DNA of 27,676 nt, from the IMG/VR virus record IMGVR_UViG_3300042691_025382, positions 1-27,676 of that record. The stretch is one strand, 5' to 3'. Under the pieces are notes generated by a model that ran no database searches, was not told the origin of the DNA, and saw only the letters and a list, made by a program, of their open reading frames with translations. The position numbers and the translations under genes were made by a program. Origin of the DNA: a virus. Positions 3,723 through 21,884 of the stretch are shown here, piece after piece. How positions within the stretch are numbered: the stretch's first letter is position 1; each line of letters opens with the position of its first letter.

Positions 3723-4424
3723 TTATCTAACTTTAGCTAACTTAAAAAACTGTAACACCTTAATGTATTGCCATCCGATATCAAATTCATACCATTTCTT
3801 ACTAAACTTAGCACTAGAACCGTCACCGTGATGATTATTGTGCAACATCTCTCCACCAATCCAGAAATCGATTGGCAGTAGATTACGGCTAGTATCTTTG
3901 ACATTGTAGTTTCTATAACCCCACCAATGAGCCGCACCATTAATAACACCGGCGGCCCAAAATGGAATCCAGAGCATTTGAACTCCCCACACAACTATCC
4001 CTACAGGACCAAAGAGCAATAGGTCTATGACCAACATCAAAAGAATTCCTGTGAGGGGGTAGGGAGTGTAAACTTTTTCTTCTATCCAATCATTAGGAGT
4101 ACCTATTCCTAATTCGTTGACTAGTATTTTGTTTCTTTTGGCTTTGACATATAAGAATGCGCCACCGAACAATACTCGCCATATACCATGCTGTTTAGGA
4201 CTATGTGGATCTTGTTCAGTGTCTGCAGCCTGATGATGTTTGCGATGCACTGCTACCCACTCTCGGGTGTTCATGCCAGTGGTCATCCATAACCAAAAAC
4301 GCATGAAATGGGCTACTGCAGGATGAAACTGCACTGCTCTATGTGCCTGCGATCTATGCAAATAGAGCGTGACACACGCTATAGTGATTTGTACCATCAC
4401 CAAGGTGTAGATTATAATTTCCAT
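3723..4424 (-). CDS. Membrane fatty-acid desaturase (delta-9 type)
   Basis: 233 residues with the three histidine boxes of membrane di-iron desaturases: H23-R-S-Q-A-H28 (HxxxxH), H60-R-K-H-H64 (HxxHH) and H195-N-N-H-H199 (HxxHH). A further His166 lies in G-A-A-H-W-W-G-Y-R, typical of acyl-CoA/acyl-lipid delta-9 enzymes. Hydrophobic segments around 3-22, 36-50 and two spans between 122 and 165 fit an inner-membrane enzyme. It is shorter than many bacterial desaturases but keeps all ligands. The inferred role is to introduce a double bond into host acyl chains, changing membrane fluidity during infection. The ATG follows a TATAAATA box by 4 nt and lacks a Shine-Dalgarno sequence. Confidence 0.93.
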   Translation of the reverse strand: MEIIIYTLVMVQITIACVTLYLHRSQAHRAVQFHPAVAHFMRFWLWMTTGMNTREWVAVHRKHHQAADTEQDPHSPKQHGIWRVLFGGAFLYVKAKRNKILVNELGIGTPNDWIEEKVYTPYPLTGILLMLVIDLLLFGPVGIVVWGVQMLWIPFWAAGVINGAAHWWGYRNYNVKDTSRNLLPIDFWIGGEMLHNNHHGDGSSAKFSKKWYEFDIGWQYIKVLQFFKLAKVR

Positions 4425-4665: not shown

Positions 4666-5255
4666 AAAAAATCATTTTAACTGACGCAGACGGCGTCTTA
4701 TTGGATTGGGAATATGCTTTCTCAGTCTGGATGGAGCAGCACGGTTTCCAAAAAACTGATGATTGGCAGTTCAAATACGATATTGGCAAGCGATATGGTA
4801 TTGAAAAAGATCAAGCCAAAAAACTCATAAAGATGTTCAACGAATCTGCACACATGGGATTCCTTCCGCCCCTGCGTGATGCTATGTATTATGTGAAAAG
4901 ACTACACGAAGAATACGGCTATGTGTTTCATTGTATCACTAGTATGAGCGCAGATGAAAACGCACAAGAACTGCGCAAAATGAATCTCTGTAAACTGTTT
5001 GGAAAGACTGCATTCACTGAGTTTATCATATTAGATACAGGTGCAGACAAAGACGAAGTGCTGGAAAAGTATCGTGACAAAGGTTACTGGTGGATTGAAG
5101 ATAAGATTGTTAATGCGGAAGCCGGTCACAATGTAGGTTTAAAGTCTTTGGTAATGGAACACGGTCATAATATGGATTATGAGAATCCGGTAATCCCTAG
5201 GGTAAAAAACTGGAAAGAGATTTTTGAAAGGATCACCGGACAGAAAGATTATTAA
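4662..5255 (+). CDS. HAD-superfamily phosphatase (5'-nucleotidase-like)
   Basis: 197 residues. Motif I is L-T-D8-A-D10-G-V-L-L-D (DxDG), motif II is C-I-T93-S94-M, and motif IV is W-W-I-E146-D147-K followed by N-A-E-A-G, the layout of small HAD phosphatases. Between motifs I and II is a helical cap of about 70 residues, as in deoxyribonucleotidases. A role in nucleotide turnover during phage DNA synthesis is plausible, but the substrate is not shown. It is the second gene of a two-gene plus-strand operon that ends at a hairpin terminator inside the facing gene. Its last 23 bases overlap the 3' end of the amidotransferase-like gene on the other strand. Confidence 0.82.
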   Translation: MKKIILTDADGVLLDWEYAFSVWMEQHGFQKTDDWQFKYDIGKRYGIEKDQAKKLIKMFNESAHMGFLPPLRDAMYYVKRLHEEYGYVFHCITSMSADENAQELRKMNLCKLFGKTAFTEFIILDTGADKDEVLEKYRDKGYWWIEDKIVNAEAGHNVGLKSLVMEHGHNMDYENPVIPRVKNWKEIFERITGQKDY

Positions 5256-5862
5256 CAAAGTTTGCTAAAAGCAAATGATGTTTACCTCCATGCCAATGTG
5301 GCTGGAGGTATTTTTTATCATACCACCATTGTTCACTTTCTAAGTGACATCCTATCAAGGCAATATTCCTGTGGACAATTGCCATAGGATCAGAATTGCT
5401 ATAACGAGCCACAACATCCATATTATTGCCAACAAAAGCACAGCCGTCATAAAAATACATCCTTTCACTTTGTTCTAACCACTGAACTGGCATGGCTTTG
5501 GGATGCGGACGTCTGGTGCAGGTTTTTGGACGTTTGATATACTGTGTTACTTCTATACCATCTAGTAGATCAAAATAGTGTTTTCCTGCCCAATATGCTC
5601 CCATACATATGCCTAGATATCGTCCGCCGTTATTAACAAAGTTTTTTACTGTGTCAAAATTCCATTTAAGCAGCCTATCGAATCTATCCGCATCGCCAAA
5701 ACCTCCCGGAAAACAAACACAATCAACATCGTCGAAAAAAGTCGGTTCTACCTCGTCTATGGAAAATAATTTAAAGGTGTGTTGAGAATTTAGAGCTTTG
5801 ATGATACCATTAGCGGAATCAACTGCACAGACAGGCTGATGAATAAAGATTGCAATGTTCAT
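5233..5862 (-). CDS. Class-I glutamine amidotransferase-like protein (BPL_N type)
   Basis: 209 residues. F-P-G-G-F-G-D-A-D (51-59) supplies the glycine-rich oxyanion loop. Y-L-G-I-C86-M-G-A-Y is the nucleophile elbow, and G-C-H173-L-E175-S-E-Q-W-W gives the His and Glu. This resembles the N-terminal domain of biotin-protein ligases (BPL_N), part of the class-I amidotransferase/DJ-1 superfamily. No partner synthetase domain is attached, so whether it hydrolyses glutamine, cleaves peptides or binds a ligand is open. It is the last gene of the minus-strand unit running from 8561 and is preceded by a structured RNA element. The start ATG has no clear Shine-Dalgarno sequence. The C-terminal codons contain the terminator of the opposite operon. 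Confidence 0.8.
   Translation of the reverse strand: MNIAIFIHQPVCAVDSANGIIKALNSQHTFKLFSIDEVEPTFFDDVDCVCFPGGFGDADRFDRLLKWNFDTVKNFVNNGGRYLGICMGAYWAGKHYFDLLDGIEVTQYIKRPKTCTRRPHPKAMPVQWLEQSERMYFYDGCAFVGNNMDVVARYSNSDPMAIVHRNIALIGCHLESEQWWYDKKYLQPHWHGGKHHLLLANFVNNLSVR
5285..5316 (+). terminator. Intrinsic terminator embedded in the facing coding sequence
   Basis: CCTCCA-T-GCCA, loop ATG, TGGC-TGGAGG, then TATTTTTT. The stem is 10 bp with one bulge. It is correctly placed 30 nt after the HAD gene stop, yet lies within the antisense coding region of the 5233-5862 gene (codons for Q-P-H-W-H-G-G). Confidence 0.8.
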
Positions 5863-5883
5863 TGTTAGAACGTAAAATGCTCA

Positions 5884-5974
5884 CTTAGGTCGCCATTCCG
5901 GGGCACGACTCCCTTAACGACCCGCCCAGCAGCCGGGCACACACCAGTAACTATAACGTCCTAAGGTAGTGTGT
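5884..5974 (-). ncRNA. Structured, pseudoknot-capable RNA element
   Basis: Non-coding, GC-rich island between two minus-strand genes. Complementary blocks in minus-strand order: ACACAC (5974-5969) with GTGTGT (5944-5939); CTTAGG (5965-5960) with CCTAAG (5889-5884); hairpin GCCC/GGGC (5938-5924); alternative GGTCG (5922-5918) with CGACC (5892-5888). The first two helices interleave, so they form a pseudoknot. AATGGCGA directly precedes the last strand. The block order resembles HDV-like ribozymes, but I do not see a convincing P1.1 or loop-3 match. A riboswitch, processing element or antisense RNA are alternatives. The element could act from either strand. Confidence 0.5.
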
Positions 5975-5976
5975 TC

Positions 5977-6090
5977 TTATACTCTAGTTAGATTACAACA
6001 ATAAGTCGGATCGCACCAATTACTAGGCTCTACATCTGCTATAGCCAAACTAGATACTGAAAGTAAAAAAATTAAAAAAATGTTTTTCAT
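5977..6090 (-). CDS. Secreted Cys-rich micropeptide
   Basis: 37 residues. A classical signal peptide (M-K-N-I-F-L-I-F-L-L-S-V-S-S-L-A-I-A) is followed by a short mature part of about 19 residues, beginning D-V-E-P and containing W-C-D-P-T-Y-C-C-N. Three cysteines in the mature peptide suggest a disulphide-bonded periplasmic peptide. The start lies 4 nt after the stop of the upstream gene, so it belongs to the same minus-strand transcript. No family is recognised. Coding status rests on the signal-peptide character, the tight spacing and the absence of any other use for this stretch. The stop codon lies 2 nt before the structured RNA element. Confidence 0.6.
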   Translation of the reverse strand: MKNIFLIFLLSVSSLAIADVEPSNWCDPTYCCNLTRV

Positions 6091-6094
6091 AGTG

Positions 6095-7240
6095 TTATTC
6101 TTGTTTCTCGATAGTATAGTCGGCTTCAGTGCTGTCTGGATAGCGTGTGGTTAATTTATTAATGATATCTTGTCGACTTTCGCCTTCTATACGTGCAGTC
6201 TTACCTGATGCTAATTGAGTCACTAGGTAAACTCCGGGGCCATCGTTGGCATTCTGTTCAGGTTCATCTTTCTTTTCTTCTTCACCAGAAGCATAACTAA
6301 TTGGAAACTTAGACTTTAAATCCGAAATTGCACCAGCGATATCATAACCGCCCTTAGCAATTTCTTGGCTGGCTTTTTTAATTTCGTCAGATTTGGCTTG
6401 TATCCCTGCTACGATCTTTTTCATAAGTCCTGGGAATAATTCAGCAAATTTATCATCCCTTCTGATGGTTTGATTACCGTTGTTTATCTGATTAGTAGGT
6501 GCATGAATCTGCCATTTACCATTAACATCATCTACATTATCTTTGTCTATTACACTAATAATAGGACCGTCAGGTGCATATCTTTCAAACCAACGAGCAC
6601 CAGAACTTGAACCTGTGCAGAAACTAGCCTGGAAACCTGCAGAATTATTAAAGGTGTAACAGCTGCCGTAGTTGAAAGGAACCACTACTAGAAAACGCTC
6701 ATCGTCAATGATGGTAATTTCTTTCTTTTCACGTTTATGTTTTTCTATAACTTCTGCATCTTTGATTTTCTGTAGTTCATCACGATATTCTCTACTTTGT
6801 ACAATACTTTGTATCTGTCTTAGATTTTTGAAACGATTAAAATCTTGATGAGGTTCTTTTAATTTTCCTCTGATACTTAGAGCTTTCCATGCTCCTAGAG
6901 CATCGCCGCCTTCACCGTTGATATCTTCATAGTCAACAACACCATTTGTGTATAGTCGTGTTAACCATTCATCGAACTTACCGTCTTGGCTAAGGTCGCC
7001 GTAATCTGTGCTACGGAGACTGTCATCTAATAGGTCACTCCATAACTTTAAAACTTTTTCAGAATTTTCGGCTTGTTTCTTAGGATCAGTTTCTTGTCCA
7101 AATGCAGCAGATCCTAATGCAGCAATTTTATCTTTCGGTAATGTGCTGTCATGCCTCATCGCAATCGTCAGCATCTTAACGATCTTTGGATCCTTGATCT
7201 TGGCCCCGACATTGGCTTCTAGAATCTGTATGACTTTCAT
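6095..7240 (-). CDS. Large phage protein of unknown function with capsid-targeting-like N-terminus
   Basis: 381 residues. N-terminus M-K-V-I-Q-I-L-E-A-N-V-G resembles T4 internal-protein targeting peptides. The centre (about 185-250) contains G-S-C-Y-T-F-N-N-S-A-G-F, F-C-T-G-S-S-S-G-A-R-W-F-E-R-Y and G-P-I-I-S-V-I-D, then K-W-Q-I-H-A-P. This Cys-Thr/aromatic, Y-x-x-x-G-P and W-x-I-H order recalls an uncharacterised domain seen in many large phage proteins. The C-terminus has a flexible acidic linker (E-E-E-K-K-D-E-P-E-Q) followed by about 50 residues that look like a small folded domain. It overlaps the upstream gene by 4 nt. Function unknown; its context suggests a late protein that may be packaged. 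Confidence 0.7.
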   Translation of the reverse strand: MKVIQILEANVGAKIKDPKIVKMLTIAMRHDSTLPKDKIAALGSAAFGQETDPKKQAENSEKVLKLWSDLLDDSLRSTDYGDLSQDGKFDEWLTRLYTNGVVDYEDINGEGGDALGAWKALSIRGKLKEPHQDFNRFKNLRQIQSIVQSREYRDELQKIKDAEVIEKHKREKKEITIIDDERFLVVVPFNYGSCYTFNNSAGFQASFCTGSSSGARWFERYAPDGPIISVIDKDNVDDVNGKWQIHAPTNQINNGNQTIRRDDKFAELFPGLMKKIVAGIQAKSDEIKKASQEIAKGGYDIAGAISDLKSKFPISYASGEEEKKDEPEQNANDGPGVYLVTQLASGKTARIEGESRQDIINKLTTRYPDSTEADYTIEKQE

Positions 7241-8781: not shown

Positions 8782-9417
8782 CTATTCGTAGGTTACTGTG
8801 TCGCTATCTCCCAAGCGCCACTTTGGGTTAGTTTCTACTACATATTTCTTAGTGCAGACTTTGAAGTCCGGGAACAGCATTTCTTTGGGATTTGAAGCAG
8901 CATCAAAGAAAAGGCAACGATTGTTAGGCTGTGCCGCATACTGTCCGTTGTCTAGCTGTATGAAGTTGAAGCTCTTGTGATCTTCAGGCCATTCGCTGTA
9001 ACTGGTATCTATGATGTTCAAATCAGGTGCAGCATTGTCTACGGTAAACATATAATCGCCCTGATACATCTGTTTGTCTTTGGCATAGAACTTGCAGCTG
9101 AGATTGCGTAGGAAAGCTTTCTGTATCACTGCTATATCGTAGCTGAAACAGTCCCAGATCTGTAGTGTGTCTAAAGGTAGAAACTTCTCCGGCTCAAGAT
9201 TGTCTGTGCGCGAAACGAACGCTGACAGAGGTAACTTGTCATAAAGAGCACCATAGCGTGGTAGATAAGCTTCAATGCGGAATGCCTGACTGCGTAGGCT
9301 TTTGATGCTGACCCAAATACAGGGTTCATATTCTCCTTGACCTTGTTGGAAATCATATAAAAACTCTCTGCGTACGAAACAGTGTACTGGGGGGATGTTG
9401 GCTACTAGGAAACTCAT
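8782..9417 (-). CDS. Conserved phage protein of unknown function in the tail operon
   Basis: 211 residues, rich in aromatic residues and strands. Features include V-H-C-F-V-R-R-E-F-L-Y near the start, E-P-C-I-W-V-S-I-K-S, and a C-terminal half with F-N-F-I-Q-L-D-N-G-Q-Y-A-A-Q-P-N-N-R. The last pattern is familiar from hypothetical proteins of aquatic T4-like phages, where no function is assigned to my knowledge. The first base of its ATG is the last base of the upstream fibre-type stop (TAATG), so it is made with the fibre proteins. It could be a tail accessory or assembly protein. No catalytic motif is visible. Confidence 0.7.
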   Translation of the reverse strand: MSFLVANIPPVHCFVRREFLYDFQQGQGEYEPCIWVSIKSLRSQAFRIEAYLPRYGALYDKLPLSAFVSRTDNLEPEKFLPLDTLQIWDCFSYDIAVIQKAFLRNLSCKFYAKDKQMYQGDYMFTVDNAAPDLNIIDTSYSEWPEDHKSFNFIQLDNGQYAAQPNNRCLFFDAASNPKEMLFPDFKVCTKKYVVETNPKWRLGDSDTVTYE

Positions 9418-12291: not shown

Positions 12292-13497
12292 ATGATAAAC
12301 AAAGAACCCTTCAAAAAACTAATCTTAGATCTTAAAGATTCGGGAAAATATCGTGTTTTTAACGATATTATTCGAGAGCGTGGAGATTTCCCTAAAGCTA
12401 TCTGGTATGGCCCGTACAATATTAAAACCATAGTAAACTGGTGCTCAAACGACTATTTAGGAATGGGGCAACACAAAGTAGTATTAGATGCAATGCATAC
12501 AGCTTTAGACCAAACAGGTTCAGGTTCAGGAGGTACAAGAAATATCGGTGGCACTAGCCACTATCATGTCGCTCTAGAACATGAGCTAGCAATGTTACAC
12601 AACAAGAGCAGAGCTTTATTATTCAGTTCTGCTTACGTGGCTAACGAATGGAGTTTGATTGCATTATCTAAAATTATTCCTAATATTCATTTTATTTCAG
12701 ATGCTAACAATCACAACAGTTTAATAGTGGGTATAAGTCATAGCAAAGCTTCTAAAACTGTCTTTAAACACAATGATCTAGATCATTTAGAAGAGATACT
12801 GTGCTCAGTAAAACTAGCAGGTCAAGTGCCTTGTATAGTATTTGAATCAGTCTACAGTATGGATGGCGATGTAAGTCCTATCAAACAAATCTGCGATCTA
12901 GCAGACAAATATCAAGCTATAACTTACATAGACGAAGTACATGCGGTAGGACTCTATGGAACCCACGGGGGTGGGAAGGTTGAAGAACTCGGGCTTGAAT
13001 CCCGTATTGACATAGTTAATGGTACCTTAGGGAAAGCCTATGGAGTCCAAGGTGGTTATATAGCTGCCGATGCAGACGTAGTTGACGCCATCCGTTCTGT
13101 GGCCGCAGGATTTATCTTTACAACTTCAATGTCGCCTGTGGCCTGTGCAGGTGCTCTAGCTGCTGTGAAGTATCTCAAAGATCACAACGAGATTCGAGAG
13201 AAACATCAGGAACGTGCCAATAAACTTAAACAACTGTTACGAGAAAATGAACTACCAGTAATGGATTGCTCCACAACTCACATCGTTCCTTTATTGGTAG
13301 GTGAAGCTAAGAAATGTAAAACAATGAGTGATATGTTATTGAATGAGTTCAGTATCTATGTACAACCTATCAACTATCCTACTGTAGATGTAGGTACTGA
13401 AAGGTTACGTTTTGCACCTACCCCGTTTCATGATGATTCTATGATGAATGATTTGATTGTTGCCCTGAAGTCTGTGTATCACCAGGTGCAAGTCTAA
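12292..13497 (+). CDS. hemA: 5-aminolevulinate synthase
   Basis: 401 residues, the size of alphaproteobacterial ALAS. It is a fold-type I PLP enzyme that condenses glycine and succinyl-CoA to 5-aminolevulinate, the first step of haem/tetrapyrrole synthesis in the C4 pathway. Landmarks: R21, [10 protein letters not shown] (50-59), [17 protein letters not shown] (76-92), [10 protein letters not shown] (184-193), Y-I-D214-E-V-H217-A-V-G, N-G-T-L-G-K248-A-Y-G with the PLP lysine, and the C-terminal [10 protein letters not shown] and G-T-E-R-L-R. The last two motifs and the length favour ALAS over KBL or BioF. All key residues appear intact. The start lies 8 nt after a TAAATA box without a Shine-Dalgarno sequence. 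Its 3' end overlaps the cupin gene by 59 bp. Confidence 0.95.
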
Positions 13498-13834
13498 ATC
13501 TATCTTCTACATAGTCAGCAGTTCCAACTTCAAAGATAACCGAACCAGCCACTAGTGCTTCTACTTGATGTGGACCTAATGCTCCGAAATCTGCAGTTTT
13601 ACCTTCTTCCAAGACAGCTTCTTTGACTTCGCCAGAGCTAACATCAATATAAGTCACTTTAAACTTGCCTGCATTAATGAACCAACTCTTATATTTTTCT
13701 TTGTGAAATACCAAGCTAGTCTTTGCTCCTACTCGATCAAATATCAATAATTTGCCGCAGTATTTGTCGTTATTGGCAAAGATGATTTCAAATCCCCAAC
13801 CCTTGTCAACTTTTCCTAATGTTTGTAAATTCAT
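13439..13834 (-). CDS. Cupin-fold protein
   Basis: 131 residues. A single double-stranded beta-helix reads [19 protein letters not shown] (12-30), F-H44[12 protein letters not shown]56-K-F, then L-G-P-H89-Q-V-E-A-L. This resembles small cupins of the mannose-6-phosphate-isomerase/sugar-nucleotide type. The first metal motif is partly degenerate (H44 but no HxH), so metal binding or catalysis is uncertain. The C-terminal 25 residues are polar and likely disordered; they are coded in the region that overlaps the ALAS gene on the other strand. Its ATG overlaps the ClpP stop by 4 nt, so it depends on the clpP promoter. Confidence 0.8.
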
Positions 13835-14421
13835 GGTCTCTTCTCAATAATTTTGTCTATCAAACCGTACTCGAGAGCTTCTTCAGCACTCATAAAAAAG
13901 TCTCTGTCCATATCACGTTCAAATTCTTCGTAGGTCTTACCTTTGGTATTATGTTTTACATAAAGTTCAGTCAACCGTTTTTTGATATGCATTATCTCTT
14001 TGTAGGATATTTCAATATCAGAAGCCATACCTCGTGCGCCGCCAGATGGCTGATGTATCATATGCCGAGCATTGGGTAACATGTGTCTCTTTCCTTTGGT
14101 ACCGGCCTGTGCCAAAAATGAACCCATTGAACAGGCCTGGCCCATAACATAAGTTGCTACATCACATTTAATAAACTGCATGGTATCATAGATACTGAGA
14201 CCTGCTGTGACTACACCGCCGGGACTGTTAATAAACAGATTGATATCTTTACCAGGATCTTCGGATTCCAAAAAAAGCATTTGTGCCACAATGAGATTGG
14301 CTGTGTAGTCCTCTACTGGACCATTCAACATTATAATTCTTTCTCGTAGAAGTCTACTATAGATATCGTAGGCTCGTTCGCCTTTTGATGTAGATTCAAT
14401 TACGACAGGTACCAAAGCCAT
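13831..14421 (-). CDS. clpP: ATP-dependent Clp protease proteolytic subunit
   Basis: 196 residues, the normal ClpP length. Catalytic triad: Ser98 in G-Q-A-C-S-M-G-S-F, His123 in M-I-H-Q-P, and Asp170 in F-E-R-D-M-D-R-D. The N-terminus [11 protein letters not shown] and [17 protein letters not shown] correspond to the axial loop and handle start of bacterial ClpP; I-N-S-P-G-G (64-69) is the substrate-binding strand. It should form a tetradecamer working with host ClpX/ClpA, or mix with host ClpP. No phage ATPase partner is in the window. It has a textbook sigma70 promoter and an AAAGGA ribosome-binding site, so it is probably expressed early, and it is followed by the cupin gene. Confidence 0.95.
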
Positions 14422-21079: not shown

Positions 21080-21361
21080 ATGAGACAACTAGAACAATTA
21101 GACACTGACAATAATCTAGAAGAAGCAGAGATCGCTCAGGTCAATAATCTGCAGCGTAATGCCATGGCAGTCAATGAACTTAGGCAACAGCTGGAGAGGC
21201 AAAGAGCTCAACCTTCTGCTGAATTCTGTGAGGAGTGTGGTGAAGATATACCTAAAGCACGTAGAGAAGCAGTGCCTGGGGTACAACTCTGTATCTATTG
21301 CCAGACTAAACTAGAAAGATTCAAAGCCAACTATCGACAGCCTGGTGACAGCTCAGAGTAA
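21080..21361 (+). CDS. DksA/TraR-type C4 zinc-finger protein
   Basis: 93 residues. A helical, charged N-terminus (E-E-A-E-I-A-Q-V-N-N-L-Q-R-N) leads to C50-E-E-C53-G-E-D-I-P-K-A-R-R-E-A-V-P-G-V, then C71-I-Y-C74-Q-T-K-L-E. The C-x2-C-x17-C-x2-C spacing and the I-P-x-A-R-R-x-A motif are those of DksA/TraR proteins. Small phage versions can act on host RNA polymerase through its secondary channel without ppGpp, so it may help redirect host transcription. The acidic coiled-coil tip typical of DksA is short, as in TraR. It ends the ligase operon; its last 41 bases overlap the YqgE gene on the opposite strand. Confidence 0.88.
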   Translation: MRQLEQLDTDNNLEEAEIAQVNNLQRNAMAVNELRQQLERQRAQPSAEFCEECGEDIPKARREAVPGVQLCIYCQTKLERFKANYRQPGDSSE

Positions 21362-21884
21362 CTACTGACCCCCATAGGTTTTCTGTAGGCTGTTCAAACA
21401 ACCAATCAGGACCTAGGTTATTAGCAACCAGCCAAGAGTGTTCACGTTTCCACGGTCCCAGTCCTTGTAGTTCATGATCTAGCTGGCCAGGAGCCCAAGA
21501 AGCATATCCCATTAGTAATCTAAAATGTTTAGGAAAATCTCCATCTGCTAGATGATGGAACATTTCTTCTGAAGATGTCATAGCCCAAGCCGAAGTGATT
21601 ATCACAGTCTTGTCGCAGACCCAATCACTACTGTGTAACATCCAGAGGCTGTTTTGGCTGACTGGACCTCCCCAATAGATCGGTGTGCTAGGTAAGTTGT
21701 CAACTCTGAGATCACTGTCCTGTAGAATTTCATCTAGATTAAAGCCGCTGGGCTTGTTCACGCACAGGCCGTGTGCGCCTTGATTGGAAAAATGTGTGAT
21801 CATCAGTACCGAATCTCTAAAACGAGGATCCGGCATGTTAGGTGGTGCGATTAATAAATCAGTAGGTTTAAGTTCAATGTTCAT
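21321..21884 (-). CDS. YqgE/AlgH family protein
   Basis: 187 residues, the length of E. coli YqgE. Hallmarks: D-L-L-I-A-P-P-N-M-P-D-P-R-F-R-D-S-V (8-25), G-A-H-G-L-C-V-N-K-P-S-G (36-47), Y-W-G-G-P-V near 70, L-H-S-S-D-W, and the C-terminal G-Y-A-S-W-A-P-G-Q-L-D-H-E-L. The function of YqgE/AlgH is poorly defined; AlgH was first linked to regulation of alginate genes in Pseudomonas. Presence in a phage region suggests transfer from a proteobacterial host. It overlaps its upstream neighbour by 4 nt (ATGA) and runs convergently into the DksA/TraR-type gene. Confidence 0.93.
   Translation of the reverse strand: MNIELKPTDLLIAPPNMPDPRFRDSVLMITHFSNQGAHGLCVNKPSGFNLDEILQDSDLRVDNLPSTPIYWGGPVSQNSLWMLHSSDWVCDKTVIITSAWAMTSSEEMFHHLADGDFPKHFRLLMGYASWAPGQLDHELQGLGPWKREHSWLVANNLGPDWLFEQPTENLWGSVVTLSCHQAVDSWL

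Follow-up and report, generated by a model that had tools for sequence, protein, structure and literature searches.

A phage RNA family with a loop complementary to helix 69 of 23S rRNA in uncultured T4-like phages

The question raised by this locus is why viral DNA should carry a near-copy of a piece of ribosomal RNA, and on which strand, if any, the likeness matters. The window, i.e., the whole stretch of DNA that was analysed, is a virus record of 27,676 bases, the plus strand of which reads CCAGCAGCCGGGCACACACCAGTAACTATAACGTCCTAAGGTAG at positions 5926-5969. An rRNA comparison bore out the near-copy with one missing G that had been noticed in the sequence: positions 5947-5969 (+) equal nucleotides 1910-1933 of the Escherichia coli K-12 23S rRNA (rrlB) minus one G (23 bases), a segment comprising helix 69 plus the bases after it. 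Next to it, positions 5926-5935 (+) are identical to 16S rRNA 518-527 (rrsB), a 10-mer that is meaningless by itself, since 201 10-mers are common to the window and the 16S/23S rRNAs. By rough arithmetic, a 23-mer with one deletion has a chance of ~1e-4 per window and could be obtained from a large scan. The claim of the original prediction that a chance match is unlikely is not secured by the 23-mer alone, but it stands on the family profiles given below. Besides the gapped 23-nt segment, the longest gapless rRNA match lies elsewhere in the window and measures 13 nt, no extended colinear similarity to rRNA genes was found in the window, and the exact 22-mer was absent from other viral contigs in a viral contig search. 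As the locus was chosen because of its rRNA match, weight was placed on the tests that leave the window out.

Relatives of both neighbouring genes revealed a conserved element of ~100 nt that immediately follows the stop codon upstream. When 39 diverse members were aligned, the alignment supported three hairpins (P1, P2, and P3) and a pseudoknot joining the P3 loop (UCGU) to the 3' tail (GUGA), with 90% of the cells paired (28-51% in slid controls), a covariation of 0.301 (0.096 when shuffled) and 122 double-sided changes (38 in shuffles). The four pseudoknot pairs are possible in all 39 members of this first alignment and in 298 of 344 wider members, two of which have an altered tail (ACGA) with the pairing retained. 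A covariance model built from the 39 members found the window copy as a full-length, covariation-supported match of 101 nt (5878-5978, minus strand; 87.9 bits), and in a wider set of 99 mostly new sequences 85.9% of the cells were paired, with a covariation of 0.503 vs. 0.132. That a structured RNA family is present is thus almost certain. Folding of the window as a single strand was uninformative (z-scores of - 0.75 and + 0.51), which is what a pseudoknotted RNA would lead one to expect. P2 contains a G-U pair in 39/39 sequences, and this pair fixes the transcribed strand, which is the minus strand in the window. The conserved transcript is therefore antisense to rRNA and the plus strand holds no conserved RNA; a plus-strand mimic of helix 69, one of the roles suggested at the outset, disagrees with the fold, the covariation and the invariant G-U pair alike, while the alternative of a minus-strand transcript antisense to helix 69 agrees with a complementarity that extends over the family.

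In the window (all on the minus strand), the P1 stem was read from the sequence as ACACACUA (5' strand, 5967-5974) pairing with UGGUGUGU (3' strand, 5939-5946), and P1 covaries in the family. The segment CUACCUUAGGACGUUAUAGUUAC (5947-5969) is complementary to 23S 1910-1933 save one G and is the top rRNA site in co-folding (- 20.0 kcal/mol). It contains the P1 loop core CCUUAGGA (5959-5966), complementary to 23S 1923-1930 and the best-conserved part of the P1 arm, and the P1b region CGUUAUAGUUAC (5947-5958), which the alignment shows to be a hairpin that varies among relatives, is lacking in minimal members and is weak in the window. In such minimal members, e.g., L482 (ACUCG-CCUUAGGACC-GAGU), the P1 loop is exactly that 10-mer. 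The P2 hairpin GCCCGGCUGCUGGGC (5924-5938) has covarying outer pairs and an invariant core, GGCUGCUG. P3 (5888-5922), supported by covariation, consists of an outer stem GGUCG/CGACC, an inner stem GGG-A-G/C-CCC, and the loop UCGUG, and according to the pairing counts the GUGA of the tail AAGUGAGC (5879-5886) can pair with UCGU of this loop. P1 together with the CUUAGG/CCUAAG of the window, which resembles a P2 pairing, had suggested an HDV-like or theta ribozyme (a nested double pseudoknot). This candidate was dropped, as the 3' side reads CUUGAAG, UCGAG, CGAAAG or otherwise in relatives and the Rfam HDV models gave no match. At the orthologous place in another contig (L131:4106-4198, plus strand), a divergent element with CACCTTAGGA and AAAGTAAGC but a different P2 scored 14.4 bits.

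Because P1b is free to vary and the window is the closest of all aligned members to helix 69 (21.5 of 24), an accident confined to the window was expected first; this expectation was dropped once profiles that left the window out had been tested. One of these, built from 89 members, was searched against both strands of 16S and 23S rRNA, and its top match was antisense to 23S 1938-1909 (17.7 bits, E 6e-6; consensus CTACCTTAGGACCGTTATGGTTAC vs. rRNA CTACCTTAGGACCGTTATAGTTAC). The highest scores in controls were 6.8 bits for 400 shuffled rRNA sets, 8.2 for 500 column permutations and 8.8 for 600 pair-preserving permutations. All seven P1b subfamilies ranked the antisense 23S helix-69 site first, and a disjoint set of 91 new, more distant relatives gave 16.2 bits at antisense 23S 1935-1908 (maximum in permutations, 8.6). 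In 5.3 Mb of other DNA, clear chance matches of this 91-member profile reached ~9 bits or less, with higher scores coming from truncated members or loci fetched by pattern from the RNA, which were set aside. The genome-wide best match was antisense 23S helix 69 in two of four bacterial genomes, both proteobacteria (3.9 and 6.3 Mb), and helix 69 was not matched in the two Gram-positive genomes: in Mycolicibacterium CCATCC replaces CGGTCC in the helix-69 stem, and in the second the helix-69 pattern was nowhere matched. Thus, complementarity to helix 69 is a property of the whole family, far above chance, as looked for between loop and target in a trans-acting antisense RNA, and the profile tests that leave the window out confirm the match in the window as real. 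The permutation tail, by extrapolation, puts the chance of such a match at ~3e-6 per RNA family, so low that it would turn up rarely, though possibly, even if thousands of such families were scanned.

Co-folding of 18 diverse members with 540 rRNA windows, opening costs included, ranked helix 69 first in 14 (down to - 23 kcal/mol) and not in the other four. Whether relatives keep the match, as the original prediction had asked, depends on the part considered. The P1 loop core CCUUAGGACC is nearly invariant, but in part of the family the P1b half drifts into unrelated hairpins (L189) or is gone (L196, L228) with the fold kept, even though proteobacteria hardly vary in the helix-69 target. The complementarity is broken by the bases that follow TTAGGA in 69 of 344 members, the window included, which read TTAGGACGT or TTAGGAACG, and the longest exact match of aligned members to antisense 23S 1881-1965 is 15 nt.

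The resemblance to the 530 loop, an element of the decoding centre, fared differently. The P2 segment CGGCUGCUGG (5926-5935, minus strand) is complementary to 16S 518-527, and antisense 16S 528-509 is usually the second-ranked rRNA match of the family profile (3.3-4.6 bits; with the full sets, E 0.06-0.18), which alone is not significant, lies within chance, and falls partly within a stable stem. What did stand is its place in an invariant loop: the P2 core GGCTGCTG is carried by 202 of 204 members that had been fetched by P1 and the tail only, P2 not being used. That both loops are antisense and both point towards decoding-centre elements is suggestive. A third antisense element in the P3 loop was given little weight, since complementarity there is seen in part of the family and not in the window type. 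The P3 loop variant UUCGCUACC, which about half of the aligned members have (L012, L107, L482-L546), shows complementarity to 23S 1929-1937, adjoining the P1 target, while the window variant GUCGUGCC has no complementarity to these nucleotides.

At the locus itself, the RNA abuts the stop codon of a small ORF of 37 codons (5977-6090, minus strand; MKNIFLIFLLSVSSLAIADVEPSNWCDPTYCCNLTRV followed by a stop), which starts like a signal peptide and is rich in Cys towards its end, and related small ORFs precede the RNA in L082, L103, L117, and L010. The upstream gene (6095-7240, minus strand) has relatives, although none in cultured phages, and no family could be assigned to it (no Pfam or PHROG match). 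Downstream lies a glutamine-amidotransferase/BPL_N-like gene (5233-5862, minus strand; Pfam PF09825, E 3.5e-10), the start of which is ~15 nt past the RNA tail (5862-5878, minus strand); no Shine-Dalgarno-like sequence is visible between the two, while clear ones precede some other genes at related loci. Host-like genes elsewhere in the window encode a fatty acid desaturase (3723-4424, minus), a ferredoxin-type PHROG (8782-9417, minus), an aminotransferase (12292-13497, plus), a ClpP protease (13831-14421, minus), and an AlgH-like protein (21321-21884, minus).

No promoter or terminator of its own was seen for the RNA on the minus strand of the window. Across 330 members, the stop codon of an ORF of ≥ 50 codons occurs ≤ 60 nt upstream in 225 (19% for random positions), and the median distance from the upstream stop to CTTAGG is 10 nt. 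A T4-late-type TAAATA is found ≤ 60 nt downstream in 23% (vs. 2% at random), and terminator-like hairpins follow in just 10 of 342 members. This arrangement suggests that the RNA is the last piece of the upstream transcript, from which it is probably released by processing.

A pattern from the middle of the RNA occurs in more than 120 viral contigs at least, and variants with GGCGGCTGCTGCC as P2 or GATTCGCTACC as P3 loop, both recognised by the first covariance model, gave many further matches each, so that at least 344 distinct sequences of ~80-110 nt were gathered in all. Each of the 18 large phage records that have the RNA holds exactly one copy, with contigs of up to 364 kb. The upstream and downstream genes differ between carriers, and in the L142 and L145 contigs the RNA lies far from the gene that usually precedes it, which makes it a genetic unit of its own. 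The carriers are large uncultured T4-like phages of water, an assignment made from neighbouring genes, among them those for a T4-type DNA ligase, a DsbA-like regulator, and a virion protein that shares ~50-57% identity with its cyanophage counterparts. Within the collections searched the distribution is restricted to phages: in GTDB genomes, the pattern CCGGCTGCTGG...GGAGTCGTGCC occurred at 50 places, none of which had the remaining RNA. Blastn with five members found nothing in cultured-phage records, and neither did the covariance model in six phage records (including two kyanoviruses, HTVC008M, and T4). Rfam 15 gave no match above gathering thresholds in the window, 10 relatives, or 10 variants and nothing credible at E ≤ 10, and no description of such an RNA was found in the open-licence literature. 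At the least, abundant uncultured T4-like phages share a large, hitherto undescribed family of structured RNA, with one copy in each genome.

As to its function, we marginally favour that the RNA is directed at rRNA in some way. More specifically, it may be a trans-acting small RNA of the phage that acts on decoding-centre rRNA by binding the subunits and altering host translation, a reading that we judge evenly balanced. The RNA would be made at the 3' end of the upstream phage transcript, beginning right behind the stop codon, and would fold into the three hairpins and the 3' pseudoknot, offering two loops to host rRNA. The P1 loop CCUUAGGACC(G) would pair with 23S 1920-1930, at helix 69 on its 3' side; with less certainty, the 16S 530 loop around 520-526 would be the partner of the P2 loop GGCUGCU. 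In the mature ribosome most of either rRNA site is base-paired, and access to them needs explaining; most likely, the RNA would bind free or maturing host subunits, perhaps while their rRNA is still folding, and host translation would be lowered or redirected. Helix 69 is an intersubunit bridge. As a peptide nucleic acid (PNA) against helix 69 inhibits the growth of E. coli, according to a review (PMC7038079), binding of an RNA at such a bridge would plausibly lower translation as well. From the sequences we infer transcription and pairing with rRNA in the cell and, as a doubtful point, an inhibitory direction: that the RNA inhibits host translation is rather unlikely in our estimate. Only tentatively can the family be read as a widespread class of phage RNAs that attack or commandeer host ribosomes through antisense pairing with the two subunits simultaneously, in their decoding centres (helix 69 of 23S and the 530 loop of 16S), and such an antisense takeover is, to our knowledge, unreported for any phage.

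The complementarity would have to be coincidental if the structured RNA had another job, e.g., binding a ligand or a protein of phage or host, as contact with such a partner could equally keep loops invariant, P1b is free to drift, the 530-loop match by itself is at chance level (E 0.06-0.18) and selection matters in a locus picked for its match. We regard this as unlikely, though by no means negligible, given a chance of ~3e-6 per RNA family (extrapolated from the permutation tail) and a helix-69 match that was repeated in disjoint members and is the genome-wide best in two bacteria. The position just after stop codons and ahead of the next promoter (225/330 members; TAAATA in 23% vs. 2%; hairpins in 10/342) would also suit a cis-acting 3'-UTR element that protects, processes, or ends the upstream transcript. 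Such a role is improbable, because a single copy per genome behind many unrelated genes is atypical of general 3' elements, an exact loop of 8-10 nt exceeds the needs of stability, and the rRNA complementarity would be left unexplained.

The same complementarity data would fit an RNA that helps at decoding-centre rRNA, either shielding helix 69 and the 530 loop from host defence ribonucleases or guiding modification. Bacterial ribonucleases that cut eukaryotic helix 69 exist (PMC13189344), and TlyA methylates C1920 of helix 69 in some bacteria (PMC12805891). No C/D boxes (RUGAUGA, CUGA) or H/ACA guide boxes were seen on inspection of the alignments, and no adjoining partner enzyme was identified, which makes a helper RNA very improbable. 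The locus could also be captured rDNA or, as was proposed originally, the scar left by homing, the helix-69 sequence being the I-CeuI core. This is hardly credible, since only short loop segments match rRNA and the unrelated flanks covary as RNA; among the scanned proteins of the window no known family of homing endonucleases was present, LAGLIDADG included, and Rfam gave no intron.

Among known systems, the plasmid antisense RNAs that act by kissing loops (ColE1 RNAI, R1 CopA) are, like the phage RNA, small and folded, with hairpin loops complementary to hairpins in the RNA that they target. They are encoded opposite these targets, whereas the predicted target of the phage RNA is host rRNA encoded elsewhere, and its two loops match two different rRNAs. 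The PNA mentioned above is likewise complementary to 23S helix 69 but is man-made and unfolded, in contrast to a natural family (PMC7038079). The C/D and H/ACA guide RNAs of archaea and eukaryotes likewise have two antisense elements to conserved rRNA sites; unlike the phage RNA, they possess C, D, H, and ACA boxes, and the hosts of the phage RNA are bacteria. RNA C and RNA D of phage T4, abundant and stable RNAs of unknown function, resemble the phage RNA in being single-copy small RNAs of T4-type phages. The covariance model had no match in the T4 genome.

If the complementarity works as read, the family would amount to a naturally occurring antisense RNA aimed at the decoding centre of the ribosome, and it would account for the control that some large phages exert over host translation, by RNA and not by protein. 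Since the target sites in E. coli are identical, the pairing of RNA and rRNA is directly testable with E. coli ribosomes. If the phage RNA tracks its host, phages of Actinobacteria would carry UUAGGAUGG rather than UUAGGACCG; in the actinobacterial genomes G041-G043, helix 69 reads GTAACTATAACCATCCTAAGGTAG / ..AACCAUCC.. and not ..CGGTCC...
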